DNA of 64,000 nucleotides from Nitrospirota bacterium (GTDB taxonomy: Bacteria > Nitrospirota > JACRHJ01): positions 186,001 through 250,000 of the forward strand of contig JAJYHX010000002.1 in assembly GCA_021784575.1 (NCBI GenBank), read 5' to 3'. A program made the translations under genes and the position numbers. Under the pieces are notes generated by a model that was not told the DNA's origin, searched no databases, and was given only the letters and a program-made list of their open reading frames with translations. This document shows positions 11,830 to 30,128 of this stretch, in pieces; the first letter of the stretch is position 1, and each line of letters begins with the position of its first letter.

Positions 11830-13363
11830 CCAAAAGCCCAAGCCTGCCCAAGGCTTCCTTCATCGGCCCCTGAAAAGGGCGTGGAGTCTCGGAGAGAAAC
11901 GCGTCCCTCACGTCTTTCGCCAGGACCTTCCCCGAACCCAGGGAGGCAGCCGTTTGCGCCTTTTTCCCGACCGCCTTGCGCGCGATTGGCCGCAAAAGCG
12001 CCGGAACCTCCGACAGCACTTTCTCGAAGACCTCTCTGGCGAACGCGTCCCATGAGACATCTCCCGATTTTAACTCCGGACGCCCTTGAAGGATGCCTTT
12101 CGCGGGATAGCAGACCCAGTCCGGATGCGTCCTGAAATAATCTTCGGCTGCCGGATACAGGTTATCCCCCAGCCTGCCGGAGACATAAAACTTCGGCTCC
12201 AGAAGCGGGTCGTCCGAAGCGACGAGCCTTTCCTTCACGGCGAGGCGGGCAAGAGGCGTGCCGGGGTATATCCGGATTCCGGCGACGGCGAAGACCTTGT
12301 CGGGCCGGACGTCTTCCAGTGTGTCGAAGGTCTCCCTCAAAGTGTCAATATCCTCGCCCGGGCCGCCGAGGATGAGGAAAACAAGGCACATCAACCCCGC
12401 TTCTTTCGCGGCGGTTATTGACCTTGCGGCCTCTTTCTTATCGAAGTTCTTGCCTAGCCTCGAAAGAACGCTGTCCGACAGCGAATCCGCGCCGACCTCC
12501 ACGCTCCCGCATCCCGCCCGTTTCATCTTCTCAAGGAGTTTTGCGTCGAGACCGACCGGGCTTGCGAGGCATCCGAAAGACGGCCTTATGCCGCGGCTGA
12601 TTATTTCGCCGCATATTGCAAGGGCGTGTTCAGGCGGGTTGTTGAAGATATTGTCCACAAAATAAAAAGGCGCGGAAAGTCCGCTGTCCATGGCGCCGGC
12701 CATTTCCCGCACGACATCCGCCGGGGGCCTGAGGCGCATTTTCACCCCTTCCAGGCCGGGATATGTGCAATAGACGCACGAGAACGAACAACCGCGCTTG
12801 GACTGTATGCCGAGCATGTCGTATTTTTCGGCCGGAAACATGTCCCATGCGGGCATGAGGAACGAATCTGCGGCAAGCCGGCTTGGCGGGTTCTGAATAT
12901 AAGAGCCGCCCTCGAACCTGCAAAGGCCGGGAACGGAAGCGTATGGGATTTTACCCTGAAGGGCGTCCGCAAGCATCGGCGCGGACATCTCGCCCTCTCC
13001 GGCTATCCCGTAATCCGCCCCCAGAAATTCGAGCGCGGCCTTCGGCATAATGGAATAGCCCGGCCCGCCTACAACAACCGGGGCGTTCGTCTCGCGCTTT
13101 ATCAGGGCTATGGTTTCTTTGTAATCGGGCAGGAGGAAACGGCTGGAAGACTCTATATTTCGTATCGAGACGGCTATAAGCTCCGGCGAGGCGGAAGCGA
13201 TGGCGTCCTTTAGCGCCGCGTCCGGTTCTTCCGCGAAAAGGAGGTCGAGCACGCGCACGTCGTGCCCCGCCCGGCGAAGCGCCGAGGCTACAAGCGCAAG
13301 ACCGAGCGGGGCCGCCGTGAACGGTTCCGTTTCACGGTTGACAGATACCAGCAAAGCCTTCAC
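11822..13363 (-). CDS. B12-binding-type radical SAM enzyme with C-terminal PCP_red-like domain
   Basis: 513 residues. N-terminal B12-binding-like Rossmann domain (about 1-150; no clear DxHxxG, so cobalamin is uncertain), radical SAM core with Cys192, Cys196, Cys199 (CSFSCVYC), HemN/Elp3-type barrel, then a tail (about 430-513) that matches the stand-alone protein at 25699-25944 and the C-terminus of the U32 protein at 26429-27835, including the shared TPRPF motif. Such enzymes do methylations, cyclisations or C-C bond changes on natural products. The shared tail ties it to the polyketide cluster. Confidence 0.8.
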   Translation of the reverse strand: MKALLVSVNRETEPFTAAPLGLALVASALRRAGHDVRVLDLLFAEEPDAALKDAIASASPELIAVSIRNIESSSRFLLPDYKETIALIKRETNAPVVVGGPGYSIMPKAALEFLGADYGIAGEGEMSAPMLADALQGKIPYASVPGLCRFEGGSYIQNPPSRLAADSFLMPAWDMFPAEKYDMLGIQSKRGCSFSCVYCTYPGLEGVKMRLRPPADVVREMAGAMDSGLSAPFYFVDNIFNNPPEHALAICGEIISRGIRPSFGCLASPVGLDAKLLEKMKRAGCGSVEVGADSLSDSVLSRLGKNFDKKEAARSITAAKEAGLMCLVFLILGGPGEDIDTLRETFDTLEDVRPDKVFAVAGIRIYPGTPLARLAVKERLVASDDPLLEPKFYVSGRLGDNLYPAAEDYFRTHPDWVCYPAKGILQGRPELKSGDVSWDAFAREVFEKVLSEVPALLRPIARKAVGKKAQTAASLGSGKVLAKDVRDAFLSETPRPFQGPMKEALGRLGLLDG

Positions 13364-14039: not shown

Positions 14040-15395
14040 TTATTTGTCTTTTAATATGTGCCTGGCCACAGCCCTGCCGGAGAGTATCGACGATGCGGTG
14101 CATCCGCCGACCGGCAGCACCGTCGAGCCTGCGCAATACAGCCCGCGCACCGGGGTCGCCACGGGCATCTTTTCGTAATTCACGCTCTCGGCAACCGGCG
14201 ATATAGAACTTGTGAAACCAAATCTGGCCGCGTAATCGGCGGGCGTGCAGAGCCTGCTGTCCACGACGTTTTCACTGAAGCCTTCTATCAGCGAATCCGC
14301 TCTGCCCGTTATCCTCCCGGCCTCGGCTTCAATCGCCTCCCTTGAGACGGCGCCTTTCGGAACAAGGAATTTTATCGTCCCGGCCAGGTGTTCGTCCCGC
14401 GTGCCGTACGCCGCATCCGGGACGGAAACCACGAACATGTTGTCTTCCGGGAACGCCCCATCTTTCAGCGTCCTGAACATCCCGCTGACACTGGCCGGGA
14501 ACATGGCATAGATATGCGCGCCGGGCGTTATTTTAGCATCTCTCCTGAACACTGTAAACACGCTCGCCATACTGAATCCCTCTTTGTAGTAGCCGAGCGT
14601 GTCAATGAATCCGGGCGGGAAATCTTTTCTGTCCGCAAGAGAATACACCGTGTGAAGGATCCCGGTCCCGCTTATTACGTTTTCCGCCTCCATCTCCCTG
14701 CCTTCGAGCAGCACTCCACGCGCCCTGCCGTCCCGGATTATTATCCTGTCGGGTTGAGCGTTATACACTATTCCCCCGCCGTTCTCGCGTATGACAGAGG
14801 CCAGAAGCTCCGGCAGCCTGCCGGAGCCTGCCCTGGGTATGAACGGCCTGTCATATCCGTACGTCCTGCCGAAAACGAGGTTGAACCAGTGCGATGGCAT
14901 GTTCTCGGGATTGTTGCCGGAAAAAAACGCCCCGACGCTGAATATCTCCCTGAGGCTGCCGTTCTGCGTGAGCCTGTTTACAAGCTCGCCATAGCCGGAG
15001 ATTTTCCTGTAGCGGTTGAACATTATCTGGCCGCCCATCCGAAGCCCAAGTTTTCCGATCTCTCCGGCGTTCATGCCCATGCCCCTGAAATCACGGAAGG
15101 TATGGAGTCCGGGCGGAATGCTCATGGATGAATTTCCGCGTTTCGCAATCACCCTGAACCATACGGGGTCAAGCTCCTTTTTCTTGCCGAGTTCAGCATA
15201 TATATCCAGTATCTTTTTCCCGAAATAGTCCGCGCCTATGTCGAAGCGATGGCCCATAAGCTCCACACTACGGCAGCGTCCGCCCGGCCCGGACATCTTT
15301 TCCAGCACAAGCGCCCTCTTCCCGGCCCGCGCAAGATACGCCCCGGCGGAAAGCCCGCCCAATCCCGCGCCGATTATTATCGCGTCATATTTCAT
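14040..15395 (-). CDS. FAD-dependent phytoene desaturase/CrtI-like oxidoreductase
   Basis: 451 residues. The N-terminus has the dinucleotide-binding GAGLGGLSAGAYLARAG motif and the E31-type acidic residue of an FAD Rossmann fold; the C-terminus shows GLYCAGSTVLPVGGCTASSILSGR, the second FAD contact of the CrtI/retinol saturase group. These enzymes desaturate, saturate or isomerise long conjugated or cyclic chains without O2 being obligatory. It overlaps the next flavoprotein gene, so the pair is probably co-translated as late tailoring enzymes. Substrate unknown. Confidence 0.82.
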   Translation of the reverse strand: MKYDAIIIGAGLGGLSAGAYLARAGKRALVLEKMSGPGGRCRSVELMGHRFDIGADYFGKKILDIYAELGKKKELDPVWFRVIAKRGNSSMSIPPGLHTFRDFRGMGMNAGEIGKLGLRMGGQIMFNRYRKISGYGELVNRLTQNGSLREIFSVGAFFSGNNPENMPSHWFNLVFGRTYGYDRPFIPRAGSGRLPELLASVIRENGGGIVYNAQPDRIIIRDGRARGVLLEGREMEAENVISGTGILHTVYSLADRKDFPPGFIDTLGYYKEGFSMASVFTVFRRDAKITPGAHIYAMFPASVSGMFRTLKDGAFPEDNMFVVSVPDAAYGTRDEHLAGTIKFLVPKGAVSREAIEAEAGRITGRADSLIEGFSENVVDSRLCTPADYAARFGFTSSISPVAESVNYEKMPVATPVRGLYCAGSTVLPVGGCTASSILSGRAVARHILKDK

Positions 15396-16590
15396 TCTTT
15401 ATTCTCTCGACCGCAAGCCTTGCCGTATAAACGCAAGATTCGATGCACGGCAGACGATAGAAATCTCCGACGACATAAGCTCCCGGGACTTCCGTCTCCA
15501 CTCCCCTTGTCCTGCTTGCCGGAGGGATAAGCGTTATCGCGGGCGACCAGCCGACTTTGGGCAGCTCCCTGTATTTCCCGAACACGGCTTCAATATCAGC
15601 GCCGGGCCTGTAGAGGAACATCCCGGCTATCGTCCTGCCGTCCGGCAGGTGCTTCATCTCTCCGCCGTGGACGCCGTGCGGGTTATTGAACTTCGAGAAG
15701 AGGAGGACGTCGTATTTCCTGTATTGCGGACAGCGCGCCTCGAATATGACGCCGCGCGTCTTGGTGCACTTCGTGTCGAAATTTATCTCCGGCATGATTC
15801 TGCCGAGGCTCTCCTGTCCGGTGGCGAATACTATATTATCCGCGGTCTCCTTAAACGGCTTTCCGCCCGGCCCAAGGATATTCACGTCAAAGGCTCCAGA
15901 TGAGTTCTTCCTGGCGCTCTCTATCCTGAACCCCGTCTTCACCACGCCCGGCATACGCCGGATAAGCTCTTCCGCCACCTCCTTCATGCCCTTGTGCGGC
16001 ACACGGATCGGCGTATCGCCGTAGGCGAGCAGGAAGAGGCCGTGGTCGGCGGCGATGTGCGGCGGGTCTATGTATCCGAAGCTCGAGAACGGCTGGACAA
16101 TATAATCGAGCATCTTACCGGAATATCCCATGTCCCTGACGCAGAACTCTTCAAGGGAGACGGAATGCAGCTCCTTAAGCTTCGCGTCCCAGCTCTCAAG
16201 GCGAAAATCGAGGCCCTTTATAAATTTTTTAAGCCGCCTCCATTTCAGATATTCGGAGAGCGAGAAAAGACCGCTCTTAAACATCGACCATGAATCGAGT
16301 CCGGTGATTTTATCGCCTATCTGAAGCGCGAATTTCTTAAGACTGACAGGCCCGTGCGAGACTCCAAGCTCGGCAATCAGTTCCGTAAACCCGCGGTTCA
16401 GCTCCGGCGCGAACATCATCGCGCCCTTGTTTATGTATACGCCCTCATATTCAAGCGTCGCAAAACGTCCGCCGGCTTCCGGCCTCTTTTCGTACACGAC
16501 CGGCTCGAAGCCTTCTTTCCTGAGGTAATATGCGGCGGACAGCCCCGCTATCCCCGCGCCGAATATCAAAATCCTTTTATTCAATCGCAT
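15385..16590 (-). CDS. FAD-dependent amine oxidase/protoporphyrinogen oxidase-like flavoprotein
   Basis: 401 residues. Opens with FGAGIAGLSAAYYLRKEGF, the FAD-binding GxGxxG, followed by VVYEKRPEAGGRFAT (GG-R motif of the amine oxidase/protoporphyrinogen oxidase superfamily). The C-terminal PGAYVVGDFYRLPCIESCVYTARLA is the second FAD site. Distinct in sequence from the neighbouring CrtI-like protein. In a polyketide context it could oxidise a hydroaromatic intermediate. Its start overlaps the end of the amidohydrolase gene by 10 bases. Confidence 0.78.
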   Translation of the reverse strand: MRLNKRILIFGAGIAGLSAAYYLRKEGFEPVVYEKRPEAGGRFATLEYEGVYINKGAMMFAPELNRGFTELIAELGVSHGPVSLKKFALQIGDKITGLDSWSMFKSGLFSLSEYLKWRRLKKFIKGLDFRLESWDAKLKELHSVSLEEFCVRDMGYSGKMLDYIVQPFSSFGYIDPPHIAADHGLFLLAYGDTPIRVPHKGMKEVAEELIRRMPGVVKTGFRIESARKNSSGAFDVNILGPGGKPFKETADNIVFATGQESLGRIMPEINFDTKCTKTRGVIFEARCPQYRKYDVLLFSKFNNPHGVHGGEMKHLPDGRTIAGMFLYRPGADIEAVFGKYRELPKVGWSPAITLIPPASRTRGVETEVPGAYVVGDFYRLPCIESCVYTARLAVERIKNEI

Positions 16591-17495
16591 AAGAGAAGCT
16601 TCTCAAGATTGCCCGAAAATATGTTCGCTTTCGACGTGCCGCTTATTGGAAGACTCCCGACCGCGTCTATAGACGCGCGTATCTCCCTGTTCGCCGGGAA
16701 GTCGCTGCCCCACAGCACTCTTCCCTCCCCGAAAACATTAATCGCCAGGTCGAGCATTCTCACGTCCGGCGAGCCGGAAGTGTCAATATAAATTTTTTTC
16801 AGAACCTCTTCCGGCCCTTCACCCATGTCTTTCACAATTCCGCGGTCCAGGAGCATTTTGTATGTCCTACCGTATCTCCCGGCGAGGAACGGCATGACGC
16901 CGGCAAAGCTTGCGAATACAAGCTTCAGCCTCGGTAATTTCTCAAGCAGCCCGCAGCCGATAATCCTTGCAAGACAGAGCGTGGTATCGAACGCATACTG
17001 GAATACGGGCGTGATGAGCGGATGGCGGAGTCTTTCAAAACCGAATGGCGTAAGCGTCGTCGGGTGGAAAAATACAGGCCTGCCCCAGGCTTCGGCTTTC
17101 TCGAAAAACGGCAGATACCCCGCATCGTCCGGATAAACTCCGCCGCCGTTTGTCGGCATTGTAAAACCGGACGCGCCTCCCCGCAGCGCCTCTTCTCCAA
17201 GCGAGATCATCCCGCCGGAGTCCGTCAATGGGACCGCCGCGAGCCAGGACAGGCGCCCGTTTGAGCTCGCTGCAATATCCTTCACGCCACGGTTATAAGC
17301 CGCAGCCGCGGCAATCTCCGTCATGGCGGCCCGGACATGAAAATCCGTAGTCGGATATGAGATCAGCGCGCGTGATACGCCGGCCTCGTCCATCGCCCTA
17401 AGATGGCCGTCCATGCCGCCCCAGGATTCGTTGTAGAACGAGGCGTTTTTTATTACTTCGCCGGGCAGCAGATGAAAATGGGCGTCGAATACCAT
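16581..17495 (-). CDS. Amidohydrolase-2 family protein (ACMSD-like), key His changed
   Basis: 304 residues, TIM-barrel metal hydrolase/decarboxylase family. The ATG at 17495 forms TGATG with the upstream gene and starts MVFDAHFHLL, with the HxH metal motif. Other expected ligands are visible: FFHP (His) and WGSDFP (Asp). The region where ACMSD-type enzymes have AHGGG, whose His acts in catalysis, reads ASFAG here. Members decarboxylate or hydrolyse beta-keto, pyrone or carboxylated aromatic substrates; here a polyketide decarboxylase or cyclase role is possible but the missing His may mean altered chemistry. Confidence 0.75.
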   Translation of the reverse strand: MVFDAHFHLLPGEVIKNASFYNESWGGMDGHLRAMDEAGVSRALISYPTTDFHVRAAMTEIAAAAAYNRGVKDIAASSNGRLSWLAAVPLTDSGGMISLGEEALRGGASGFTMPTNGGGVYPDDAGYLPFFEKAEAWGRPVFFHPTTLTPFGFERLRHPLITPVFQYAFDTTLCLARIIGCGLLEKLPRLKLVFASFAGVMPFLAGRYGRTYKMLLDRGIVKDMGEGPEEVLKKIYIDTSGSPDVRMLDLAINVFGEGRVLWGSDFPANREIRASIDAVGSLPISGTSKANIFSGNLEKLLLCD

Positions 17496-18220
17496 CAGTA
17501 TCTCAACACTTCCTTTATAGTTTGGTAAAGCTCGGAGTTCCACACGTCGCAAACCTGTTCGCCGACGGCGCGGGCCATGGCGAGCGCCGGCTTGTTTTCC
17601 TCATACGACGGCATCGGTTTGTCCAGTAGAGATTTGAAACCCGGATGCTCCATCGCAAAGCGCTTTCCCACCATGCAGAGATTTTTCATCTCCGCCTCCA
17701 TCAAAGCAATCCCCGCGCAGGCGACGGACGTCGCAGTCATGGCCTTTAGGTAATGGAAGAGGTAGTAGAGCGCGCCCTCCATGCCGATGGCCGCGCCGAC
17801 GGCGATGTTGCCCACGGGCGCGCCCTTGAACGGATTTTTCGGATAAGCCGTTATCGTCGTGCCCCATATCTCGGAGCGTTCCTGCTCGTGCAGCGGACGC
17901 GTCCTGTGCAAAAGATTGATTACAATCGCCGGCTGCTGATATGCATAGACGGGCGATGAAAAGATAAACGCGTCGGACTCGGACATCTTGTCGAAGATAA
18001 ATCTGCCGTCGTCGTCCTTGTCTTCAAGGAGCGGACAGCTGAGGCCGCAAAGACATCGGTTACAAGCAAGACACGGCTTCACGTTATAATTAATAAGCCT
18101 GATAACCTCCGACTCCGCGCCCTTTTCCTCTGCGGCTTCGAGCGCCTTGCGCAGGAAATAATCGCTTGCGGATTTCTGCTTTCCTCTTTTATGCGTGCCG
18201 CATATACCGAGAATTTTCAT
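17495..18220 (-). CDS. Iron-sulfur flavoprotein / NADPH-dependent FMN reductase family
   Basis: 241 residues with a flavodoxin-like fold: GICGTHKRGKQKSAS near the N-terminus for FMN phosphate binding, then a compact Cys motif CLACNRCLCGLSC at about residues 50-62, as in archaeal-type iron-sulfur flavoproteins, and SSPVYAYQQPA as the FMN isoalloxazine contact. Likely an anaerobic electron carrier or quinone/polyketide reductase. Tightly coupled to the aromatase gene upstream (4-base overlap) and the amidohydrolase downstream. Confidence 0.8.
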   Translation of the reverse strand: MKILGICGTHKRGKQKSASDYFLRKALEAAEEKGAESEVIRLINYNVKPCLACNRCLCGLSCPLLEDKDDDGRFIFDKMSESDAFIFSSPVYAYQQPAIVINLLHRTRPLHEQERSEIWGTTITAYPKNPFKGAPVGNIAVGAAIGMEGALYYLFHYLKAMTATSVACAGIALMEAEMKNLCMVGKRFAMEHPGFKSLLDKPMPSYEENKPALAMARAVGEQVCDVWNSELYQTIKEVLRY

Positions 18221-18645
18221 TTTCCCTCTATTATCTCTTTTATCCTCTGCATGTTTTTCTTCGAGTGCTCGTTTATCCGGCCTTCTGCCGTCTTGTCATC
18301 CACCGGCGCTTTCTCGTCCATGGAAAAATCCTGCTCCCAGGTCATCTCCACGCCGCCGTCTTTCTCTTCATATGTCCAGAGCAGGTCCATATATTTGAAC
18401 GGGAACATCGGCTCCTCGCGCTTCGCCGCGCATCTGTGCCCGGCCTTGTCGAGGATGCGGCTGGAGCGCCAGGACTTCCCTTCTTTATTTGTGAGCTGAA
18501 ATGTTATTCTGTCCCCTTCGCGCGAAAGAATCTTCGCGTCGGAGTATTCGTCGAAAAGCTCCGGCCAGCGTTCGATGTTGTTGGTAACATCGAATACTTT
18601 TTCGTACGGCGCGTCGATGAATATGGAATTTTTAGTATGTGCCAT
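18217..18645 (-). CDS. SRPBCC polyketide aromatase/cyclase, TcmN-ARO/CYC-like
   Basis: 142 residues. The pattern NSIFIDAPYEKVFDVTNNIERWPELF, then WRSSRILDKAGHRCAAKR, FKYMDLLWTYE and GGVEMTWEQDF, follows the first-ring aromatase/cyclase family exemplified by TcmN and WhiE-ORFVI, which fold a poly-beta-ketone bound to ACP and aromatise the first rings. It lies four bases after the metal-dependent cyclase gene and downstream of the ketosynthase pair and ACP, the classic type II polyketide context. Which cyclisation it directs cannot be read. Confidence 0.85.
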   Translation of the reverse strand: MAHTKNSIFIDAPYEKVFDVTNNIERWPELFDEYSDAKILSREGDRITFQLTNKEGKSWRSSRILDKAGHRCAAKREEPMFPFKYMDLLWTYEEKDGGVEMTWEQDFSMDEKAPVDDKTAEGRINEHSKKNMQRIKEIIEGK

Positions 18646-18649
18646 TTTT

Positions 18650-19417
18650 TCAGTCCTCGATTATCGCCACAGCGCGCGCCCATGCCGCGCCAGCATCTTT
18701 TATCTTTACCGGGAAACAGGCGAACCTGAAACCGTGCGGCGGCAGCGAGGCGAGGTTTGCGAGCCGCTCGATATGGCAGTATTCTTTTTCCCGGCCGAGC
18801 AGATGAACAGGCCAGAGCTTCGATGCGTCCGCCGTCTGTTGATAATCCGAGGCCATATTCATAAACGGCCTGTCCAGGCCCGGCGCGTCGGTTCCGATGG
18901 TCCTGATGCCAAGGCCGAAAAGATATTCCGCCGCATCAATGCCCAAACCGGCAAATTTCAGGAAATACTCCCTGCTTCCGAAATGCCTGTCCGCGCCTGT
19001 CATTATTAGCGCAATGTCGCCGGGCTTCGGATTATATTTTATGGCTTCCAGCCCGCGGCGGATGTCTTCCGCCGTTATCTCGCCGCCCGGCGGCAGGGCA
19101 GTAGCGTCGATTACAAAACCGTTTCCGTAGCACCATTCAAGCGGGACATCGGATATCTTCTTCGCTGGCAGTCCTTCGGACTCCGGGCCGAAGTGCCAGG
19201 GCGCATCCATGTGAGTCCCGCAATGAACCGACGCCTCCACCGTCTCATGCGAAAGGAACATGCCGCCGGGAAACGCATCCGCGCCTATTTTCTTCTCGCC
19301 GGGGAATTTGTCCCCTATCTTTCCCGCGCCTTCCGCATGGCCGATGCGCGCTATCCGCACCGGGAAAGGTTCCGGCGCGCAGTCGTCTATTGGAATGCTC
19401 AGGTCTATTATTCTCAA
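18650..19417 (-). CDS. Cyclase family protein (PF04199-type metal-dependent hydrolase fold)
   Basis: 255 residues. Seen: HCGTHMDAPWHF (the HxGTHxDxPxH metal-binding signature) at about residues 64-75, and GIRTIGTDAPGLDRPF. The family includes bacterial kynurenine formamidase and polyketide cyclases. Within this cluster a ring-closing or hydrolytic step on the polyketide is the likely role. The start overlaps the ACP stop (ATGA). No tryptophan-degradation genes are nearby, which argues against formamidase. Confidence 0.82.
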   Translation of the reverse strand: MRIIDLSIPIDDCAPEPFPVRIARIGHAEGAGKIGDKFPGEKKIGADAFPGGMFLSHETVEASVHCGTHMDAPWHFGPESEGLPAKKISDVPLEWCYGNGFVIDATALPPGGEITAEDIRRGLEAIKYNPKPGDIALIMTGADRHFGSREYFLKFAGLGIDAAEYLFGLGIRTIGTDAPGLDRPFMNMASDYQQTADASKLWPVHLLGREKEYCHIERLANLASLPPHGFRFACFPVKIKDAGAAWARAVAIIED

Positions 19418-19650
19418 GGCCTTGCCGCCGCGTTGGAGAAATATTCGATTATCTCGCGGACCGTGCTCCCGCCGTTTATCGCCCCGTCCGGAATCCTGAC
19501 CGAGAACTCCTTTTCCAGCGCAACCAGCAGTTCAACCATCTCCGTCGAGTCAACTCCAAGGCCGGTCTTCAGAGCCGCTTCCGGACGCAGCTCGCTTCTG
19601 TCTATGCCAATCTCACCGAAGACCTTCTCTATTTTATCTTCCACCGGCAT
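19414..19650 (-). CDS. Acyl carrier protein of the polyketide cluster
   Basis: 78 residues. Contains LGVDSTEMVELLVALE, with Ser35 as the expected 4'-phosphopantetheine site (DST instead of the common DSL), and the four-helix ACP pattern ending in TVREIIEYF. It lies directly after the ketosynthase/chain-length-factor pair, so it is the probable carrier for the growing polyketide. No phosphopantetheinyl transferase and no malonyl-CoA:ACP transferase are seen in the window; these would be borrowed from fatty acid synthesis. Confidence 0.9.
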   Translation of the reverse strand: MPVEDKIEKVFGEIGIDRSELRPEAALKTGLGVDSTEMVELLVALEKEFSVRIPDGAINGGSTVREIIEYFSNAAARP

Positions 19651-19665: not shown

Positions 19666-20874
19666 TCAGGGCCTGCCTATTAAAAGACAGGCGTTCACTC
19701 CGCCACGCCCGATTGAGTTAATGATAACGTTCTCTTTGGTTAATTTCCTTGTCCCGCCGCCAAAAACAAAAAAATCAAACTCCGGCTCGTCCACGCTCAG
19801 GCATGGCGTCTGCCCGTTATTCAGCGCCATGCATGCGAAAGCCGCATCGAGCGCGCCGGATGCGCCGAGAGAGTTCCCTATCTGCGGCTTCGGAGAATAA
19901 AACGGAAGTTCGCCGGCCATGTCTCCGAATATCCTTGAGAACGCCCTGCCCTCGGATAAATCGGCATATTTCCCGGCGTTGGCCGACGGGATAGCCATGC
20001 CGATTCCGGACGCGGCAACGCCAGCCTCGCGCATGGCGAGTGTCATGGCGCGGGCCATGCCGTCGCCGGAGGCGTCGGAAATTATCGGGTGCATCCCGTC
20101 GCTCGTATGCCCGAATCCCTTTATCTCGGCGTATATCCTGGCGTCTCTTTTGAGCGCCCTGTCCATCTCCTCGACAACGAGCGCCGCCGCGCCCTCTCCG
20201 ATTATGCAGCCGTCGCGGTCTTTGCAAAACGGCCTGTAGCGCCCTGTCCGGCTCAGTTCGCCGGAGGTGTTGCAGCATAAAAGCGCGTAGGGCGATACCG
20301 GCGCCTCGGCGCCTCCCGCGAGCATCACGTCCGCCCTGCCCGTCTTTATCGCGCGCGCGGCATATGATATGGCCATGTGCGAGCTGGCGACGTCGGAGAT
20401 TATGGTCTTGGAAAAACCCTTCAGTCCGTAGAAAATGGACACCTGTCCCTGCGGCGCCGCAGGGAACCACGCGGTCGCCTGGTACGGGCTTACCTCCCGC
20501 AGGCCTTGCGTCCAGAGGTCCCGAAGCTCTTCCTCCGCAAACGCCCAGCCGCCGAGGGCGTTGCCGAAAGTTATGCCGATACGGTTCTTGTCTTCCGCGT
20601 CAAGGTCTATCCCGCTGTCCCTGAATGCGGCGTCGGAAGCCGAGAGCGCCATATGGGAGAACCTGTCGAGCTTCTTGATGAGTCTTTTGGAGAAAATCTC
20701 TTCGCCTCCGGGGCCGGATACCAGGCCCGCATGGCGCGAAGGATAGCGCGATGCGTCGAAACGGTCTATCTCGCCGATAAAGCTCCCGCCGGACGACAAT
20801 CTTCCAAAAAACTCATTCAGGGTATTCCCGGCGGGGCTTGTCAGGCCGATGCCCGTTATGACCGCGCGTCTCAT
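19666..20874 (-). CDS. Ketosynthase-beta / chain-length-factor-like protein, active site lost
   Basis: 402 residues with the full thiolase fold of a beta-ketoacyl synthase (RRAVITGIGLTSPAGNT, GGAEAPVSPYALL, QIGNSLGASGALDAAFA). The catalytic triad is gone: the nucleophile region reads ISDVASSHMAISYA (residues 159-172) with no Cys, the first His region reads IPSANAGK, and the second His is Asn334. This is the expected state for a chain-length factor, which pairs with an active ketosynthase in type II polyketide synthases. It overlaps the ketosynthase gene by ATGA, supporting heterodimer formation. Actinobacterial factors usually have Gln in place of Cys; here the substitution differs. Confidence 0.85.
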   Translation of the reverse strand: MRRAVITGIGLTSPAGNTLNEFFGRLSSGGSFIGEIDRFDASRYPSRHAGLVSGPGGEEIFSKRLIKKLDRFSHMALSASDAAFRDSGIDLDAEDKNRIGITFGNALGGWAFAEEELRDLWTQGLREVSPYQATAWFPAAPQGQVSIFYGLKGFSKTIISDVASSHMAISYAARAIKTGRADVMLAGGAEAPVSPYALLCCNTSGELSRTGRYRPFCKDRDGCIIGEGAAALVVEEMDRALKRDARIYAEIKGFGHTSDGMHPIISDASGDGMARAMTLAMREAGVAASGIGMAIPSANAGKYADLSEGRAFSRIFGDMAGELPFYSPKPQIGNSLGASGALDAAFACMALNNGQTPCLSVDEPEFDFFVFGGGTRKLTKENVIINSIGRGGVNACLLIGRP

Positions 20875-22145
20875 GCCCGCCTCAATATCATGGATGAGTG
20901 GATTCCGGAAAACCCGCTGCTCGTCTTTATCAGCACGTTCACTTGTTTGTCCCTGGCCTCGTTAGGCACATAGTCGAGATCGCATTCAGGGTCTCGCTCC
21001 CTGTAATTCGCCGTCGGCGGGATTACGCCGCGCTCAATGACCATCGCCGACACCGCGAGTTCAATGGAGTTCGCCGCCGAGAGCGGATGTCCTATCATGG
21101 ATTTTATGGAGCTTACCGGCGCATGGTATGCCATGTCTCCGAGGGCGGATTTTATCGCGTTCGTCTCGAAGACGTCGTTCTGCTCCGTTGAGCTTCCGTG
21201 CGAGTTTATGTAGTCTATGCCTAAGGCGTCAACCCGCGCCTCGTCCATTGCGAGTTTTATCGAACGCGCCAGCGCGTCGCCGTCTTTCGGCAGGTCGGTC
21301 ATGTGATATGCGTTCGACGTCGAGCCGAAGCCCGCTATCTCCGCATATATTCTCGCGCCCCGCCGGGCTGCGTGGCCGTATTCCTCGAGGACGAGTATCC
21401 CCGCGCCTTCCGAGATGACAAAACCGTTCCTTGTCCTGTCGAACGGGCGCGACGCCGCCTCAGGCTCGTCGTTATGCTTCGAGAGCGCCTTTATGACGTC
21501 GAAGGCCGCAAGGGCTATCGGCGTAATCGGGGCCTCGGACGCCCCGGTTATCATAACATCGCACAGGCCAAGCTGGATGTTTTCGTATGCGTAGGCCACG
21601 GAATCGGTCCCGGCCGTGCAGCCGGTCGAGATGACGCACGCCCCGCCTTTCAGCCCGTAGCGCGCGGCGATGAAGTTGGCGGGAGAATTGAATATCGACG
21701 CATCGTAGAGAAACGGCGAAGCGAGGGCCGGGTCTATAGGCTCACGACCGTTATGCGTAACTCTCAGGAACTCCTCCTCCATCCACTTCGTGCCGCATAT
21801 GGCGTTCGCAAGCGCCACGCCGCACCGCTCGCGGTTCGTCCTGTCAAGCTCCAGACCCGCGTCCTCCACCGCAAGCTTCGCCCCGGCCAGGGCGAATTGC
21901 AGATACCTGTCCATTCCCGATGCGTCTTCATGCGGAATGCCGAATGACGCGGGATCAAAACCATTCACCTCCGCCGCGACCTTCGACAGGAACCCGGTCG
22001 TATCGAACGCCGTGATTAATCCAGTCTGGGTGCGCGCGTTTATCATGGAGTCCCAGAATGCATCCTTGCCGATGCCGCCCGGAGCGATGACGCCGAGGCC
22101 CGTTATGACCACCCTGCGGACGGTCGACCGTCTGCTGAGATTCAA
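20871..22145 (-). CDS. Ketosynthase-alpha of a type II polyketide synthase
   Basis: 424 residues from a TTG start that overlaps the upstream stop (TTGA). Complete Cys-His-His triad: Cys176 in STGCTAGTDSVAYA, His316 in NSHGSSTEQND, His353 in MIGHPLSAANS. The TGCTAG-x-D context is typical of polyketide ketosynthases rather than housekeeping FabF (TACA). It condenses malonyl-ACP units with the adjacent chain-length factor. GTG or ATG starts giving the same N-terminus are absent, so TTG is the best choice although its Shine-Dalgarno (GAGG) is unusually close. Confidence 0.9.
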   Translation of the reverse strand: MNLSRRSTVRRVVITGLGVIAPGGIGKDAFWDSMINARTQTGLITAFDTTGFLSKVAAEVNGFDPASFGIPHEDASGMDRYLQFALAGAKLAVEDAGLELDRTNRERCGVALANAICGTKWMEEEFLRVTHNGREPIDPALASPFLYDASIFNSPANFIAARYGLKGGACVISTGCTAGTDSVAYAYENIQLGLCDVMITGASEAPITPIALAAFDVIKALSKHNDEPEAASRPFDRTRNGFVISEGAGILVLEEYGHAARRGARIYAEIAGFGSTSNAYHMTDLPKDGDALARSIKLAMDEARVDALGIDYINSHGSSTEQNDVFETNAIKSALGDMAYHAPVSSIKSMIGHPLSAANSIELAVSAMVIERGVIPPTANYRERDPECDLDYVPNEARDKQVNVLIKTSSGFSGIHSSMILRRA

Positions 22146-22411
22146 GCCTCGACCCGCCTGACCTTGAACCGCACGTACCCGCCGTCCGGGCATGTCACGG
22201 TGTTGATGGAGTCCGGGTCTTCCATGAACGGATACTTTGCGCCGAAGTTCAGCGCGAAGAGCACCGGGAAGAGCGTGTGGTATGCCGCCCCGCAGAAGCC
22301 TTCCGGCGTCCTGAGCCCCAGCACCTCCACCTCCTGGCCCTGCCGGTATTTATAAAAACACGGCCCGGAGACCTCTTCGACGGATATGACCATTTTCTTT
22401 GGATTTGCCAT
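22142..22411 (-). CDS. TIGR04076-like small protein, copy 2
   Basis: 89 residues. Paralogue of the next gene upstream: both share a FCxxAYHxLFPVL core, an FGAxxPF segment, and a C-terminal TCPDGGxxxFKVR motif (TCPDGGYVRFKVRR here). The family occurs in anaerobes and has no known function; the invariant Cys pair suggests metal or thiol chemistry. The start ATG sits at the stop of copy 1, and its own stop overlaps the ketosynthase TTG start, so it is translationally locked to the polyketide synthase. Confidence 0.75.
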   Translation of the reverse strand: MANPKKMVISVEEVSGPCFYKYRQGQEVEVLGLRTPEGFCGAAYHTLFPVLFALNFGAKYPFMEDPDSINTVTCPDGGYVRFKVRRVEA

Positions 22412-22674
22412 TATAACTTCCTCACTTTGAATGTAAGATTCCCGCCGTCCGGGCATGTCGTCCGGACACAGCCTTCGCTGTCCCGGAACGGAAATTCCGC
22501 GCCGAACGTCCAGGCGTAAAGGACAGGGAACAGCGAATGATACGCGCCGTAACAGAAGCCGTCCGGCGGCGTCACGAAGTCCTTTACCTCGAACGTGTCG
22601 CCTTCTTTCAACCCTTTGAAGCATTCCTTGCCGACTTTATCCACCGTCAGGATAAAACCCGGGAATTCCATCAT
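22411..22674 (-). CDS. TIGR04076-like small protein, copy 1
   Basis: 87 residues. Shows GFCYGAYHSLFPVLYAWTFG and CPDGGNLTFKVRKL, the same core as copy 2 with conserved Cys, His and Asp. The two copies differ enough (about half the residues in the core identical) to suggest an old duplication or a heterodimer. Overlaps the stop of nothing but the start of its neighbour; the gene itself begins inside the last codons of the PanE-like gene (ATGA). Function unknown; co-translation with the ketosynthase is the main clue. Confidence 0.75.
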   Translation of the reverse strand: MMEFPGFILTVDKVGKECFKGLKEGDTFEVKDFVTPPDGFCYGAYHSLFPVLYAWTFGAEFPFRDSEGCVRTTCPDGGNLTFKVRKL

Positions 22675-23669
22675 AATCCGAACCTCCTTAACATTTCATC
22701 GACCGACAGATATTTATTCGTTCTCTCCGTCTCCTTCACAAGCTCGACGGCCTTGCCGTTAAGCCTCGCCTTGCGCCCCGCCTCTTCGGCCTCCCTGACA
22801 ACCTCGCCGTTTAGATAATCCACTTCCGAGGCCCTCCCGCGCATGACGCTCTGAAGGACTGAGCCGGGCAGCGGCAGGTGGGAAAGCCCGCGCATTATGT
22901 TCCCGTATATCTTCGGCCCTATATCCGCGGGCGCGTGCAGGAGCGACTTGAGTTTTTCGAGCGGCAGGTCGGGGAGGTCGGCCATCTCCATGCCCGCGGC
23001 CTCGAAAACATCCCATGCCTCGCGCATGAGCGAGAGGCCAAGGGAAGAGACCCCGTCTTCCGAGAACGCCTCCTGGAGGTCTTTGCCGAGTATGCAGGCG
23101 ACAGCGTTATTGAGGTTCAGTATCAGCTTCGCCCGGTGCACGGCCTGTATGTTTCCAGCAACATGAACCTCGAAGGCCGTGGACAAAATCTTCCCGACCT
23201 TCTTCACAATACCATCGCCGTCATGTCCGAAAGCCTTGCCGATGACAAGCCCGCCGGGGAAATTATACGTAACGTGTCCCGGCTCCCTGTATGTGGCGCC
23301 GAACATCACGACGGCGGACACTATCCGCTCTCTGCCGAGGATTTCCCCGGCTATCTCGTCGGCCATCATGCCGTTCTGCATCGTAAGCGCCGGGAAGTTT
23401 CCCATGCCCTTCATCTGACCGCAGGCGGATTCCATGTCATGCGTCTTTACGGCAATCAGCGCAAGGTCGGGGATGAACTCCAGGGCTCTCGCGGCGTAGA
23501 TTACATAATTTCTCCCGCCAGCCACGCCGTCAATTGAAAGGCCGTTATGATTTATCGCCCTTACCTGGCGCGGGTCCCGGCTGATGAGCGTAACCGCATG
23601 CCCCTTTTCATGGAGCAGAGCGCCCGCGACACACCCTACGGCGCCCGCGCCTATAACTGCAATTTTCAT
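22671..23669 (-). CDS. Ketopantoate reductase (PanE/ApbA) family oxidoreductase
   Basis: 332 residues. N-terminal NADP-binding GAGAVGCVAGALLHEKGH, then IAVKTHD and LTMQNGM, which carry the family's Lys and Asn active-site residues, and HRAKLILNLNNAVACIL in the C-terminal domain (Lys and Asn of the catalytic set). True PanE makes pantoate for coenzyme A, but no pantothenate gene is adjacent; inside this cluster a ketoreductase acting on a polyketide carbonyl is more likely. Overlaps both neighbours by 4 bases. Confidence 0.8.
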   Translation of the reverse strand: MKIAVIGAGAVGCVAGALLHEKGHAVTLISRDPRQVRAINHNGLSIDGVAGGRNYVIYAARALEFIPDLALIAVKTHDMESACGQMKGMGNFPALTMQNGMMADEIAGEILGRERIVSAVVMFGATYREPGHVTYNFPGGLVIGKAFGHDGDGIVKKVGKILSTAFEVHVAGNIQAVHRAKLILNLNNAVACILGKDLQEAFSEDGVSSLGLSLMREAWDVFEAAGMEMADLPDLPLEKLKSLLHAPADIGPKIYGNIMRGLSHLPLPGSVLQSVMRGRASEVDYLNGEVVREAEEAGRKARLNGKAVELVKETERTNKYLSVDEMLRRFGL

Positions 23670-25618
23670 AAGTTCAGGTTCTTCGTTTCGCTCGTAATGA
23701 CATCTATCTCTTTTTTTATTTCAACCCGCGGCGCTCGGCTGAAATCCGCGGTCAAACCAGGTCTTCCCGTCTTTATGTCCCAGCCGTGGCAGGCGTAGTA
23801 TTCGTCGAGCATCCCGTCGTAGAGCGCCCTGTCGAGCTTCATCCCCTTAGACTCTTCGTCCAGCCCGTCCTGCCAGGCAAGCGGTTCGAAATACCTCGCG
23901 GGCGGATAGTCGTCCTTGCGTCCCACGCCTTCGCGGCAGATGAACATGCGCTCCACGTCCGTAATCGCGTTCCCGGCCCCGAACACCTCTTCCGGTGTCA
24001 TATGTATGCCGCTTGCCGTTTTTATCAGGTCGCTGAAGACCCTGAAGCCGAATACGCCCGGTTCCGGCAGCGTATGAAACGCAAGGAGCTTGCAAAGGCC
24101 GAGGGCGTCGAAAAGCGCGAGGTAGCACTCCCACCACCAGACCACGCGCCCCTTGCCGCCGTATTTCAGCGGGTCCGGCTCCACGGGGCCGCCGTAGATC
24201 CCCTCCAGGAAATTCCTGTCGAACTCGAAGGCCTCCCACGGGCACCGGCTACGCAGGTGATCCGCGCCCCTCGTGGACGTGGAAACTCCAAGGGCGAACG
24301 CCTTGATGAAGCGGAGATCGACAGGGTCGGACTGCGGGAGGTTCTTTACCCATATCAGGCGGCTTTTCGATGCCTCGCCGAGCGTTGCCGACGCTTCCTT
24401 CGCGCCGTTGGCAAGGAAACCTCCAAAGCCTCTTCGGAATGCAATATCCTCCAGGAGTCCGGCGACCATCTCCGGGTCGTTCCAATCGAGCCTGACACCG
24501 CCCGTTTCGGCGTCTCCTATAATGCCTTCCCTGTATAATTCTATCGCCCAGGCGATGATGTTCCCGGCGGAGCTTGCGTCTATCCCAAGGCGGTTCAGCC
24601 TGTCGTTAAGCATCAACACGGCCTCGGCGGAATTGATGCCCAGGACAGGCCCCATGTGCCCCATGACGCCGTATTCGGGGCCTTCGCCGTAAAGCCCGGC
24701 GCGCTTTCCCGCGGTTATTTTGTATGAATGCCTGCATGAGACGGCGCAGTTCCTGCACCCGCGCCTGCCGGAATAAAACCCGGCCTCCAGCGTCTCCGGG
24801 GAGAGGTCGCCCGGCTCTTTCATTTTCGTGGACAGGCCGTTATACGCCCGGCCCATCTCGATATTCGTGTTTATGACGTTATAGAGATGCGCCGTCCCGT
24901 AGCGCGAAAGGTCCTGCGTAAGGAACTCCGCCTTCAGCTTCTTGTTTATTTCGCGCGTAAGGGACGCGAAATTTTCGGCGTCGCTCGGATGCGTTTTCCC
25001 GCTATCGACCGCCGCGACCGCCTTAAGGTTTTTGCTCCCCATCAAACAGCCCATGCCTGTGCGGCCCGCGGCGTTTTTCCTGCCGTGCATGATGCAGGCG
25101 AAGCGCACGAGATTCTCTCCCGCCGGGCCTATGCACGCGATCTGAACCCCCTCGCCGCACTGCTCCTCTATCGCTTCCTGCGCATCAAAGGAGTCCATGC
25201 CCCAGATTTGCGAGGCGTCCTTTATCTCGGCGGCCGTCCCGTTGCCGTTTTTACGGATAACCAGGTAAACGGGTTTTTCCGATTTCCCCGTAATGAAGAG
25301 GTGCCTGACGCCCGTGGAAACGAGGGCGCACCCGAAATCTCCGCCGATATTGGCGTCTCCGAAAAGGCCGCTTTCCGGGCTTTTGCCGGTAACGGTCAGC
25401 CTCGCCGACGACGGCCCCGGCATCCCCGTAAGAAGCCCGGCGCCGAATATCAACGGGTTTTCCGGGCCAAGGGGGTCAAGCCCGGCCTCGGTATTTTCAA
25501 GGAGAAGCGCGCTGTTTATCCCCCGCCCGCCGACATACCTGCGAATCAGGGCGTCAGGCAGGTCTCTGGTCTCGTAAGAGCCTGAAGATAAGTTTATGTA
25601 TAATATCTTATGGTTCAT
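23666..25618 (-). CDS. Aldehyde:ferredoxin oxidoreductase family (tungsten/molybdopterin enzyme)
   Basis: About 650 residues. N-terminal AFOR domain (KILYINLSSGSYE, YVGGRGINSALL), pterin-binding GKSPESGLFGDANIGGDFG and GRKNAAGRTGMGCLMGSKNLKA, and the [4Fe-4S] motif CRNCAVSC with a fourth Cys near GLCKLL. The family uses ferredoxin to oxidise aldehydes or, in relatives such as BamB of class II benzoyl-CoA reductase, to reduce aromatic rings. In this cluster either aldehyde handling or reduction of an aromatic polyketide is possible. TTG-ATG precede the reading frame; the ATG is used. Confidence 0.88.
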   Translation of the reverse strand: MNHKILYINLSSGSYETRDLPDALIRRYVGGRGINSALLLENTEAGLDPLGPENPLIFGAGLLTGMPGPSSARLTVTGKSPESGLFGDANIGGDFGCALVSTGVRHLFITGKSEKPVYLVIRKNGNGTAAEIKDASQIWGMDSFDAQEAIEEQCGEGVQIACIGPAGENLVRFACIMHGRKNAAGRTGMGCLMGSKNLKAVAAVDSGKTHPSDAENFASLTREINKKLKAEFLTQDLSRYGTAHLYNVINTNIEMGRAYNGLSTKMKEPGDLSPETLEAGFYSGRRGCRNCAVSCRHSYKITAGKRAGLYGEGPEYGVMGHMGPVLGINSAEAVLMLNDRLNRLGIDASSAGNIIAWAIELYREGIIGDAETGGVRLDWNDPEMVAGLLEDIAFRRGFGGFLANGAKEASATLGEASKSRLIWVKNLPQSDPVDLRFIKAFALGVSTSTRGADHLRSRCPWEAFEFDRNFLEGIYGGPVEPDPLKYGGKGRVVWWWECYLALFDALGLCKLLAFHTLPEPGVFGFRVFSDLIKTASGIHMTPEEVFGAGNAITDVERMFICREGVGRKDDYPPARYFEPLAWQDGLDEESKGMKLDRALYDGMLDEYYACHGWDIKTGRPGLTADFSRAPRVEIKKEIDVITSETKNLNL

Positions 25619-25621
25619 CAA

Positions 25622-25698: not shown

Positions 25699-25944
25699 TT
25701 ATATTGCCGGCATATCAAACCCGGCGCCCCTTGCCGCATCGCGCATACTCTTCTGGAACGGCGCCGGGGTTTCGGAGATAAACGCGGCGACAATATCCCG
25801 CTCTTCCACCAGCGCCGCTCCGCGCGCGGAGGCGTTTTCCTCCGCCTTCTTCCCGGCCAGCTTCTCCGCCATCTTCCTCTGGAAAAAAGGTATCATGGAG
25901 ATCATCTTGTCGAACTTCGCCCTGCCGCCACGCTCCCAGTCCAT
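25699..25944 (-). CDS. Stand-alone PCP_red-like domain protein
   Basis: 81 residues from an ATG 8 bases after AAGGAG; an ATG 14 codons earlier overlaps the upstream stop but has no Shine-Dalgarno. The body, FDKMISMIPFFQRKMAEKLAGKKAEENASARG, follows the PCP_red pattern known from the C-terminus of light-independent protochlorophyllide reductase B subunits (L-x2-IP-F-x-R, E-x2-A-x3-G). It continues into VAAFISETPAPFQKSM, a segment shared with the tails of the B12 radical SAM and U32 proteins. Possibly a docking or cluster/protein-interaction module for the cluster's enzymes. Confidence 0.75.
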   Translation of the reverse strand: MDWERGGRAKFDKMISMIPFFQRKMAEKLAGKKAEENASARGAALVEERDIVAAFISETPAPFQKSMRDAARGAGFDMPAI

Positions 25945-25982: not shown

Positions 25983-26432
25983 TCATCCGGGAATTTGAGC
26001 GCCCTCAAGGGCGGATTTCATCGCGTTCAGTATCCGGACAATGTTCCCGTCGTGCATACGGCGGTACGCGAGCCTCCATAAAATCCGGTTCATGCCTCCT
26101 GTAATTTCATAGTCCATCAGGAAATGGACTTCGCTCGATTTTTCGCCCGGTTTTATATACACTTTGTCCGTGCCCCGGAACATCCCGCTTATAAACCTCC
26201 TCGATATTCCGTGCCCGGGAGTTATCGATACGACTTCAACCTCCCATTCCGGCGCGAACGGCCTGTAAACCTTCTGGTGAAAGCGTGTGCCGACCCTTAC
26301 CTCTGCGGAATCCTTCCGGCTGTATTTCATGGGAGATTCATCCGGCCACCACCTGCTCTCGCCCCAGAGGACGACTTCCCTGTATATCGCGTCCACGGGA
26401 GCGTTTATCGTTACAAAATGGTGGTTTATCAA
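25983..26432 (-). CDS. SRPBCC (START-like) family protein
   Basis: About 149 residues. TTG start overlapping the U32 stop (TTGA), with GGAG 8 bases upstream; a longer frame inside the U32 gene is rejected. Begins INHHFVTINAPVDAIYREVVLWGESRWWP, the standard SRPBCC opening strand and helix, and ends with a long helix (MHDGNIVRILNAMKSALEG). The fold forms a hydrophobic cavity; relatives include polyketide cyclases and lipid-binding proteins. It is only distantly similar to the TcmN-like protein at 18217-18645, so it may bind or cyclise a later intermediate. Confidence 0.72.
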   Translation of the reverse strand: MINHHFVTINAPVDAIYREVVLWGESRWWPDESPMKYSRKDSAEVRVGTRFHQKVYRPFAPEWEVEVVSITPGHGISRRFISGMFRGTDKVYIKPGEKSSEVHFLMDYEITGGMNRILWRLAYRRMHDGNIVRILNAMKSALEGAQIPG

Positions 26433-27835
26433 CCCGTAAGCTCCGTTATTTTTTCCTCTATAAGTTTCCTGAAAGGCGCGGGAGTGGCCCTCAGCCATGC
26501 GGCGCATATGTCGTCCACGCCAACCCTTCCGCCGCCTGAGGCGCGAACCTCGGATGCGACCTTTTTCCCGGCGGCCTGGCGGAATATCGCAGGCACAAAG
26601 CCGAGGAGCTTATTATGCGCTTCCCTGGCGCCGGCGTCCCATTCATCCACGGAACTCGTTGAATCTTCGAGGTAAATCTCGCCTGTCGCCAAGGATTCAA
26701 GGAGCGCTTCATACCTCTCAGCCGCCGCTTCGACCATCCCTTCGTCCACCTTCAGCGCCTTTTTTGCAATCAACCCGCAATAGCCGCACTCGCCGCAGTC
26801 GCTCGTTCTACAGTCTTTCGTCTTGAAAAAGCTGAGGAAATTCGACGGGATTTTTGAGTTGTCCAGCACAAGGCCTTCCGTGACCGGATAGTCCGTAATG
26901 TCGGCGAATTCCATTAATTTCGCAGTATTTATGTATTCATCCCTCAGTATATACTTTATATTTGCCGGCAGGAACGCCTTCTTCCGGGGAAGGTTTAAAA
27001 GTTCTACAATATTTCCCTCAAAGCGCCTCCCGGAATAGGCCTTGAGGTAGGAAAGGAGCGTCTCTGTCGTTTTGTAGCGGTCGATAATCTTCAGGCAGTC
27101 AACCCCCGCCATCTCGTAATCCTCGATGTCTTCCGGGCGTATCCATCTGATTTTTATAAGTTCTTCCGGATGCCGGACCTTTTCGTCCGTGCAGGAAAAA
27201 TAGCAGTGATCCACCAGAAACCCCTCGGAGGAATGCCCGCCCTGCGAGCCGTGCGTCATTACGTTGGCGTGATAGAAGGAGCGCGGGCACCCGTAGAGAC
27301 AGCCGGGATTGGCAATCAGGATGAGCTTGCACTTCACGGCCCTTCTTATGGCCTCCAACGTCTTGAAATCCCTGTTTATTTCCTCGGAGAGCACAATGGC
27401 GTCCGCGCCGAGGGATTCCCAGTACTGGGCCTTCCGCACGCTCTCGACCCTCGCCCAGCTCGATACGGCAATCTTAAGCTCCGGGAAATGCCTCTTTATT
27501 ATTTCAAGGAGATAGGGGATTGTTACGGTTACCCAATCGGCGCCGGTGGACTTCACCCACTCTATGTGCCGGATTATCCTGGCGAATTCATCTTTTCTGT
27601 ACTCCCTGTTGTCGAGACAGGAGGCGTTCAGCAGGAAGTTGAAGGAGTGTCCGGCGGCCCTTGCGGATTCGATATATCTCCCGGCATCCGGTTCAGTTAT
27701 TTCCGGGGCGACAAAGGACGCCCTGCCGCCCGCGATAAGGCTTCCGGGGATGCCTCCAAAAAGCTCCACATCAGGGAAATTTTCCAATCCTTTCAGGAGG
27801 TTGACATCCCAGTTGCATGCCAGCTCGAACCTCAT
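26429..27835 (-). CDS. U32 peptidase family protein with C-terminal PCP_red-like domain
   Basis: 468 residues. N-terminal U32-type TIM barrel (about 1-250) with Cys179, Cys183, Cys211 and Cys215 placed like the [4Fe-4S] ligands of UbiU/UbiV, a middle region with a second Cys group (CRTSDCGECGYC, about 340-352), and a PCP_red-like tail (about 395-468) with the shared TPAPF motif. UbiU, UbiV and RhlA are O2-independent hydroxylases rather than proteases. In an anaerobe's aromatic polyketide cluster, anaerobic ring hydroxylation is an attractive inference. Overlaps padR by ATGA. Confidence 0.78.
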   Translation of the reverse strand: MRFELACNWDVNLLKGLENFPDVELFGGIPGSLIAGGRASFVAPEITEPDAGRYIESARAAGHSFNFLLNASCLDNREYRKDEFARIIRHIEWVKSTGADWVTVTIPYLLEIIKRHFPELKIAVSSWARVESVRKAQYWESLGADAIVLSEEINRDFKTLEAIRRAVKCKLILIANPGCLYGCPRSFYHANVMTHGSQGGHSSEGFLVDHCYFSCTDEKVRHPEELIKIRWIRPEDIEDYEMAGVDCLKIIDRYKTTETLLSYLKAYSGRRFEGNIVELLNLPRKKAFLPANIKYILRDEYINTAKLMEFADITDYPVTEGLVLDNSKIPSNFLSFFKTKDCRTSDCGECGYCGLIAKKALKVDEGMVEAAAERYEALLESLATGEIYLEDSTSSVDEWDAGAREAHNKLLGFVPAIFRQAAGKKVASEVRASGGGRVGVDDICAAWLRATPAPFRKLIEEKITELTG

Positions 27836-30042: not shown

Positions 30043-30128
30043 CCCTCTCCCCGCCCTCTCCCACGAGGGGCGAGGGTTAAATCATTTCACCCCTCTACCG
30101 CTACTGGGAGAGGGGACGGGGGAGAGGG
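30043..30128. repeat. Large palindromic repeat overlapping the end of cobH
   Basis: CCCTCTCCCC-G-CCCTCTCCCA (30043 on) is mirrored by TGGGAGAGGGGACGGGGGAGAGGG ending at 30128, with a second nested GAGGGG/CCCCTC pair between, giving a nearly 86-base hairpin. It supplies the last 13 codons of the cobH-like gene (PSPPSPLPVAVEG). Similar GC-rich hairpins are common mobile palindromic elements in proteobacterial genomes. Confidence 0.7.

Follow-up and report, generated by a model that had tools for sequence, protein, structure and literature searches.

A PCP_red-related module, free-standing and fused to a radical SAM enzyme and a U32-family protein, in a Nitrospirota type II polyketide synthase cluster

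Introduction

The PCP_red domain (PF08369) is the C-terminal domain of ChlB/BchB and has a stand-alone form, Asr4154 (PDB 2L09). In the DPOR literature that we searched no role was found for the C-terminal PCP_red domain of ChlB/BchB, which leaves no function to transfer from there to the module described here; nor did our literature search turn up a function for PCP_red or DUF2621 (PF11084). For characterised members of the U32 family, O2-independent hydroxylation has been reported (PMC6747719, PMC11574389), and the radical SAM family TIGR04072 is connected with gene clusters believed to produce ladderanes (PMC2649909), a lead rather than evidence about the product in the present case. KS-CLF pairs are listed for Nitrospirae in a 2023 catalogue (PMC10132072).

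Here we analyse a 64,000-nucleotide stretch of a Nitrospirota genome (the window, to which all coordinates refer unless a locus is named), in which a PCP_red-like module stands alone and also forms the tails of a B12-binding radical SAM protein and of a U32-family protein.

Three copies of one module

The free-standing module is an 81-aa protein encoded on the minus strand at 25699..25944 (ATG at 25944, stop at 25699), a gene assignment resting on its translation, Shine-Dalgarno sequence, homology and AlphaFold model. A strong Shine-Dalgarno sequence lies directly upstream of the start (AAAAGGAGATAGTGTT-ATG), and similar ones (AAGGAGA/GAGGAGG/AAGGAGGAA) stand ahead of the orthologues in genomes G001, G045 and G016. 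The fused copies comprise residues 437-513 of the 513-aa radical SAM protein (11825..12055 within 11822..13363, minus strand) and residues 398-468 of the 468-aa U32-family protein (26432..26644 within 26429..27835, minus strand).

Pairwise BLASTP with the full proteins as input aligned the free module with the radical SAM tail at E 2e-14 (40% identity over 70 aa); the free module met the U32 tail at E 4e-11 and the two tails met each other at E 8e-10. After addition of 13 modules from related genomes (16 members in total), profiles of the three module classes aligned with one another at hhalign probabilities of 99.4%, 96.5% and 98.8% and scores of 51-106, where column-shuffled controls gave at most 20, which rules out chance similarity. 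The homology of the three segments, proposed in the initial annotation, is thus confirmed by sequence comparison, the profile check having upheld it. The motifs on which that proposal was built need slight adjustment. Only the free protein shows IP-F to the letter (IPFFQR), its counterparts in the enzymes being VPALLR and VPAIFR; E-x2-A-x3-G, too, is found to the letter in the free protein alone; and the final motif, in which TP and PF are indeed common to the copies, reads [EA]TP[AR]PF instead of [SA]TP[RA]PF.

Searches of the whole genome with PF08369 and with PF11084 each singled out the three module sites, leaving a single further PF08369 match, at E = 1. The PCP_red domain search found no DPOR gene in this genome, and a true DPOR remnant is ruled out, as the genome has no other PCP_red match of weight.

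Relationship to PCP_red and DUF2621

By Pfam's rule the module is a superfamily relative rather than a member of PF08369, since its scores (16.2 bits for the free copy, 12.4 for the radical SAM tail, no match for the U32 tail) lie below the curated cut-off of 32.5. PF11084 scores of 13.8 and 13.5 bits are likewise under that model's curated cut-off of 27.7. Across the 16 module members, PCP_red matched 12 (best E 3.4e-6) and DUF2621 all 16 (best E 1.3e-6), the latter match taking in the C-terminal helix. The module profile aligned with tandem PCP_red proteins of other Nitrospirota, themselves bona fide PCP_red (PF08369 E 1.8e-18), at an hhalign probability of 96.2% and a score of 46.5, against maxima of 31% and 22.5 among 200 shuffled controls, and with ChlB/BchB/Asr4154 segments at 85.6% and a score of 31.1 (shuffles at most 17.0). 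Both comparisons thus reach far beyond the shuffles. In a PDB sequence search the PCP_red domain of ChlB (2KRU) was the second match, at E 0.087.

The resemblance to PCP_red noted initially therefore stands as kinship, but the module is not plain PCP_red: it falls below the cut-off, DUF2621 fits it equally well, and it has an extra helix. A fair statement, as far as sequence goes, is that it represents a divergent branch of a PCP_red superfamily that also includes DUF2621, with one helix more. PCP_red and DUF2621 match the same module stretches (11825-12055, 25699-25944, 26432-26644), and the comparisons suggest that these two families are mutually related.

The tandem proteins are a feature of many Nitrospirota genomes. 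They are about 250-270 aa long, with two PCP_red domains (L042-L061, e.g. L059:910-1662 and L051:871-1665) and an N-terminal four-cysteine part resembling a zinc ribbon (C-x2-C ... C-x2-C).

Predicted fold and conserved residues

AlphaFold2, given an alignment of 18 natural modules, modelled the free module with a pLDDT of 90.3 and predicted a strand at residues 2-3 and helices at 7-15, 20-40, 48-58 and 61-73. The fourth helix comes after the conserved TP, behind [EA]TPxPF, and is the portion beyond PCP_red. The top Foldseek match of the model was Asr4154 (2L09), with a probability of 0.89 and a TM of 0.44-0.54 at a non-significant E of 0.4, and 2KRU was found at rank 20. Most matches after 2L09 were histones (H2B, 48 residues at 1.3 A), at E 0.4 and higher, none significant; against viral models there was no significant match.

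Perhaps, then, the modules pair mutually, as histone-type helical dimers that would cross-link the radical SAM protein, the U32 protein and the free protein. The predicted short-long-short order of helices, with one helix extra, and the run of histones among the fold matches would suit such pairing, as would the existence of tandem PCP_red proteins in Nitrospirota. However, the fold matches are not significant, and comparison of sequences with two archaeal histones gave hhalign probabilities of 2-11%, within or barely above shuffled controls, the modules falling within them and ChlB barely above. We regard mutual pairing as unlikely. As to homology with histones, the resemblance in fold is a hint that the sequence comparison did not bear out, which leaves a likeness of topology only, and nothing in the literature searched connects the histone fold with protochlorophyllide reductase.

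The invariant residues of the module are W, P, A, D, T, P and F, and its conserved aromatic or hydrophobic positions include W3 and F63. None of the invariant positions in the module alignment is a Cys or His. This bears on the possibility that oxygen-sensitive enzymes receive a cofactor or Fe-S cluster through the module, by binding or insertion, a role that its hosts might invite, since they depend on Fe-S clusters, cobalamin and probably tungsten. With Cys and His conserved nowhere in the module, a direct cofactor role lacks support, and direct cofactor binding was set aside on that ground; moreover, oxygen-sensitive enzymes elsewhere in the genome, tail-less paralogues of the two hosts among them, manage without the module. 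We consider such a function very improbable.

Host enzymes, linkers and selection

The radical SAM protein, identified by TIGR04072 and Foldseek, has its [4Fe-4S] motif CSFSCVYC at residue 192, and its best fold match is TsrM (6WTE, Foldseek E 1.1e-30). It scores 328.7 bits against TIGR04072, below the NCBIfam cut-off of 360. Its relatives straddle that line: orthologues from a second Nitrospirota family pass at 362-364, G007, G016 and G032 are among the genomes whose proteins pass, and that of G024 fails at 356.5. Judged by these scores, the radical SAM proteins are a borderline TIGR04072 subfamily. A further TIGR04072 protein, at 369.8 bits above the cut-off, is encoded at L113:9924-12242 (G000:C5, at a contig end); by eye, the gene directly after it resembles one for a malonyl-CoA:ACP transacylase, and the two may belong to another cluster for a lipid or polyketide.

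When the radical SAM protein was modelled over its full length (from 32 natural sequences), the core was confident up to residue 425, residues 426-434 had a pLDDT below 50, and the module recurred as a separate domain at residues 437-507. Confidence in the tail helices is moderate (about 67-85), so the tail may possibly pack onto the radical SAM core. The linker (residues 425-436; 12056..12091, minus strand) is predicted to be disordered and is fast evolving.

The U32-family protein (PF01136 E 3.9e-14) keeps ten cysteines in the four orthologues aligned, among them 179/183/211/215 and 342/347/350/353. Its putative linker (residues 386-397; 26645..26680, minus strand) is recognised by its sequence divergence and is fast evolving. 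The genome also encodes a tail-less U32 paralogue with 39% identity, and tail-less TIGR04072 paralogues as well. A tail-less U32 paralogue, at L107:8467-10182 (G000:C10), is followed by an SRPBCC-like gene, a pairing of the cluster met here in another context.

Comparison of the window genome with its sister species gave dN/dS values of 0.56 for the radical SAM linker and 0.52 for the U32 linker (12 codons each), against 0.11 and 0.18 for the respective tails and 0.06-0.16 for the catalytic domains. Identity between the two Nitrospirota families follows the same division, at 0% and 8% for the radical SAM and U32 linkers and 48% and 34% for the tails. These rates indicate that the tails are under purifying selection and that the linkers evolve fast. 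Since the linkers diverge, the tails are constrained and tail-less paralogues exist, the tails can be regarded as selected, movable additions.

A type II polyketide synthase cluster

The module genes lie among genes that all share one strand over about 19 kb, and it is plausible that they belong to one operon. The central genes, all on the minus strand, encode a ketosynthase alpha with an active-site Cys and two His (KS-alpha, 20871..22193), whose nearest solved structure is the actinorhodin KS (1TQY_A, E 1.1e-120); a chain-length-factor-like ketosynthase beta with neither the active-site Cys nor the two His (KS-beta, 19666..20874); and an acyl carrier protein with the Ser of the DS motif (ACP, 19414..19650). 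The cluster thus has the active KS-alpha, inactive KS-beta and ACP that define a type II PKS, and these assignments identify the surroundings as a type II polyketide synthase cluster. Two putative cyclases, one of PF04199 (18650..19417, minus strand) and one a polyketide cyclase/SRPBCC protein (18217..18645, minus strand; PF10604, 2.5e-11), are followed by a CrtI-like FAD protein, an amine-oxidase-like FAD protein, an amidohydrolase-2 and an FMN reductase (14040..18220, minus strand).

On the other side of the ketosynthase genes are two TIGR04076 proteins and an ApbA-type reductase (22142..23669, minus strand) and an aldehyde:ferredoxin oxidoreductase family protein (AFOR, 23666..25621, minus strand; assigned by Pfam, 1AOR E 7.8e-83). 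In both Nitrospirota families the AFOR gene is the next one downstream of the free module, and AFOR is a possible partner of that module. Between the free module and the U32 gene is an SRPBCC-like protein (25983..26507, minus strand), named by eye, with no Pfam or NCBIfam match; it has orthologues at L024 and L027, and its true start is probably near 26432. The tandem TIGR04076 pair (22142-22674, about 90 aa each) is kept beside the KS genes in two families. Elsewhere in the window, 30087-30749 looks by eye like a precorrin-8X methylmutase, possibly a cobalamin gene near this B12-dependent cluster.

Candidates for tailoring are the B12 radical SAM protein, a SPASM radical SAM protein, the U32 protein, the AFOR-type protein, the two FAD proteins, the FMN reductase and the ApbA reductase; no obvious O2-dependent oxygenase is present among the annotated cluster genes. 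The cluster looks built for an aromatic polyketide made without oxygen. A ladderane-type cluster is what the radical SAM family would point to, but this was rejected in favour of an aromatic polyketide because KS-alpha is nearest to the actinorhodin KS.

Distribution and age

Among the 296 Nitrospirota genomes searched, ten had strong modules, five from the genus of the window and five from the second family, and the remainder had none; the weak matches inspected outside these two groups were ordinary tandem PCP_red proteins. Cluster-type KS-alpha (above 60% identity) was confined, among 396 genomes, to the same genus and family. Tails and cluster thus show near-complete co-occurrence, being found in nearly the same surveyed Nitrospirota genomes. 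Cluster KS and U32 were not detected in G024, a fragmented MAG in which a tailed radical SAM protein was found, and U32 was not detected in G007 and G032; the MAGs are incomplete, and these gaps may reflect assembly loss. Outside Nitrospirota the search for the U32 protein was a single contig scan with two short peptide patterns, a weak negative that returned four Nitrospirota MAGs only.

The second family keeps the order U32 - SRPBCC - free module - AFOR - ApbA - TIGR04076 pair, followed by KS-alpha - KS-beta - ACP - cyclase - SRPBCC - FMN reductase. Its cluster is spread over several contigs, with the radical SAM gene on another contig than the rest, and the segment from U32 to ApbA shows about 50% identity between families. 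Each of the free, radical SAM and U32 modules has orthologues in the second family, and the module tree groups them by host protein, not by genome (support 99/99 for the free and 89/87 for the U32 modules), although the radical SAM modules are not resolved as one clade. Because of this grouping by host, the three forms are probably older than the family split, or else moved together.

It could be argued that the tail is an appendage for folding or stability, or a hitch-hiker spread by recombination, with no shared partner; all three copies do belong to a single cluster, within which they could have been duplicated by recombination. Against this, the copies appear to have diverged before the two families split, the tails are under purifying selection, and in the free copy there is no host protein for the module to stabilise. 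Such an origin seems to us very improbable.

Discussion

The initial annotation had spoken of a common docking or cofactor-handling device. Its docking half gains from the flexible linkers, the selection on the tails, the tail-less paralogues and the shared occurrence; its cofactor half gains nothing, none of the invariant residues being a Cys or His. A helical domain that is flexibly tethered, under selection and apparently free of cofactors is shared, within one assembly-line pathway, by catalytic domains of two unrelated kinds and by a free protein, and recruitment to a shared partner is the simplest account of this. Our working proposal, to which we give about even credence, is that the module is a tethered docking part that gathers oxygen-independent tailoring enzymes on such a partner.

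On this view a single anaerobic cluster for an aromatic type II polyketide would employ a small helical recruitment module in three places, with a flexible linker tethering it to the cobalamin-dependent radical SAM enzyme and to the U32 Fe-S protein, and as a free protein encoded beside the AFOR-type enzyme. All three copies would bind the same component of the assembly line, for which the ACP-bound chain and the KS-alpha/KS-beta pair are the likeliest candidates and another module a further one, through a helical surface bearing the conserved W, P, D and TPxxF. The reactive polyketide and its oxygen-independent tailoring enzymes would so be held in one complex, in which the B12 radical SAM enzyme might perform methyl transfer or another radical reaction and the U32 protein a hydroxylation. 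Gene order suggests that the free copy either serves the neighbouring AFOR in trans, as its tail, or is an adaptor. More tentatively, and as something we think doubtful for now, the PCP_red-derived domain could be a common plug that assembles radical SAM, U32 and AFOR enzymes on one line, amounting to an anaerobic tailoring metabolon.

The main rival to docking is substrate binding, whereby the module would be a substrate-binding or lid domain for a planar aromatic polyketide and the free copy a substrate chaperone. Kinship with PCP_red would fit, since in ChlB/BchB this domain might help to hold protochlorophyllide, and so would the conserved W3 and F63 and a cluster product that is aromatic by KS type. 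Yet a linker predicted to be disordered and evolving freely is odd in a fixed lid, the module is common to a free protein and to catalytic domains that differ greatly from each other, and substrate contact by PCP_red in DPOR was not found in the literature searched; on balance we think this reading unlikely.

If docking is correct, the module would be a portable tag that brings oxygen-independent tailoring, methylation and hydroxylation included, to polyketide carriers. With PCP_red on two unrelated enzymes and tail-less paralogues in the same genome, the function of PCP_red becomes directly testable. In its own right, the cluster may represent a route to aromatic polyketides that is entirely independent of oxygen, of which, to our knowledge, few examples are known.

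Comparison with known systems

With PCP_red the module shares a W at the start, (I/V)P ahead of the long helix, A and G near the end of that helix, and a short strand and helix after it. It differs in being about 30 residues longer, with TPxPF and the fourth helix, and in being fused to radical SAM and U32 enzymes. The DUF2621 model differs in turn by about 50 extra N-terminal positions that the module lacks.

The radical SAM host has the B12-binding and radical SAM core in common with TIGR04072 (rSAM_ladder_B12) over profile positions 1-415 (E 4.7e-98), but the module stands in place of the GxLWxxL-type C-terminal end of tail-less members, and the gene context of the window protein is that of a type II PKS instead of being FASII-like. 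The U32 host resembles the U32 oxidases (UbiU/UbiV, TrhP, RlhA) in its U32 domain and conserved cysteines, whereas its cysteine pattern is CX3CX27CX3C plus a second four-Cys group, as against CX6CX15CX3/4C, and it bears the module. Finally, KS-alpha, an inactive KS-beta, ACP and cyclase are what the cluster has in common with aromatic type II PKS systems (actinorhodin, 1TQY; 6SMO), from which it is set apart by predicted tailoring through radical SAM, U32, AFOR and flavin enzymes.
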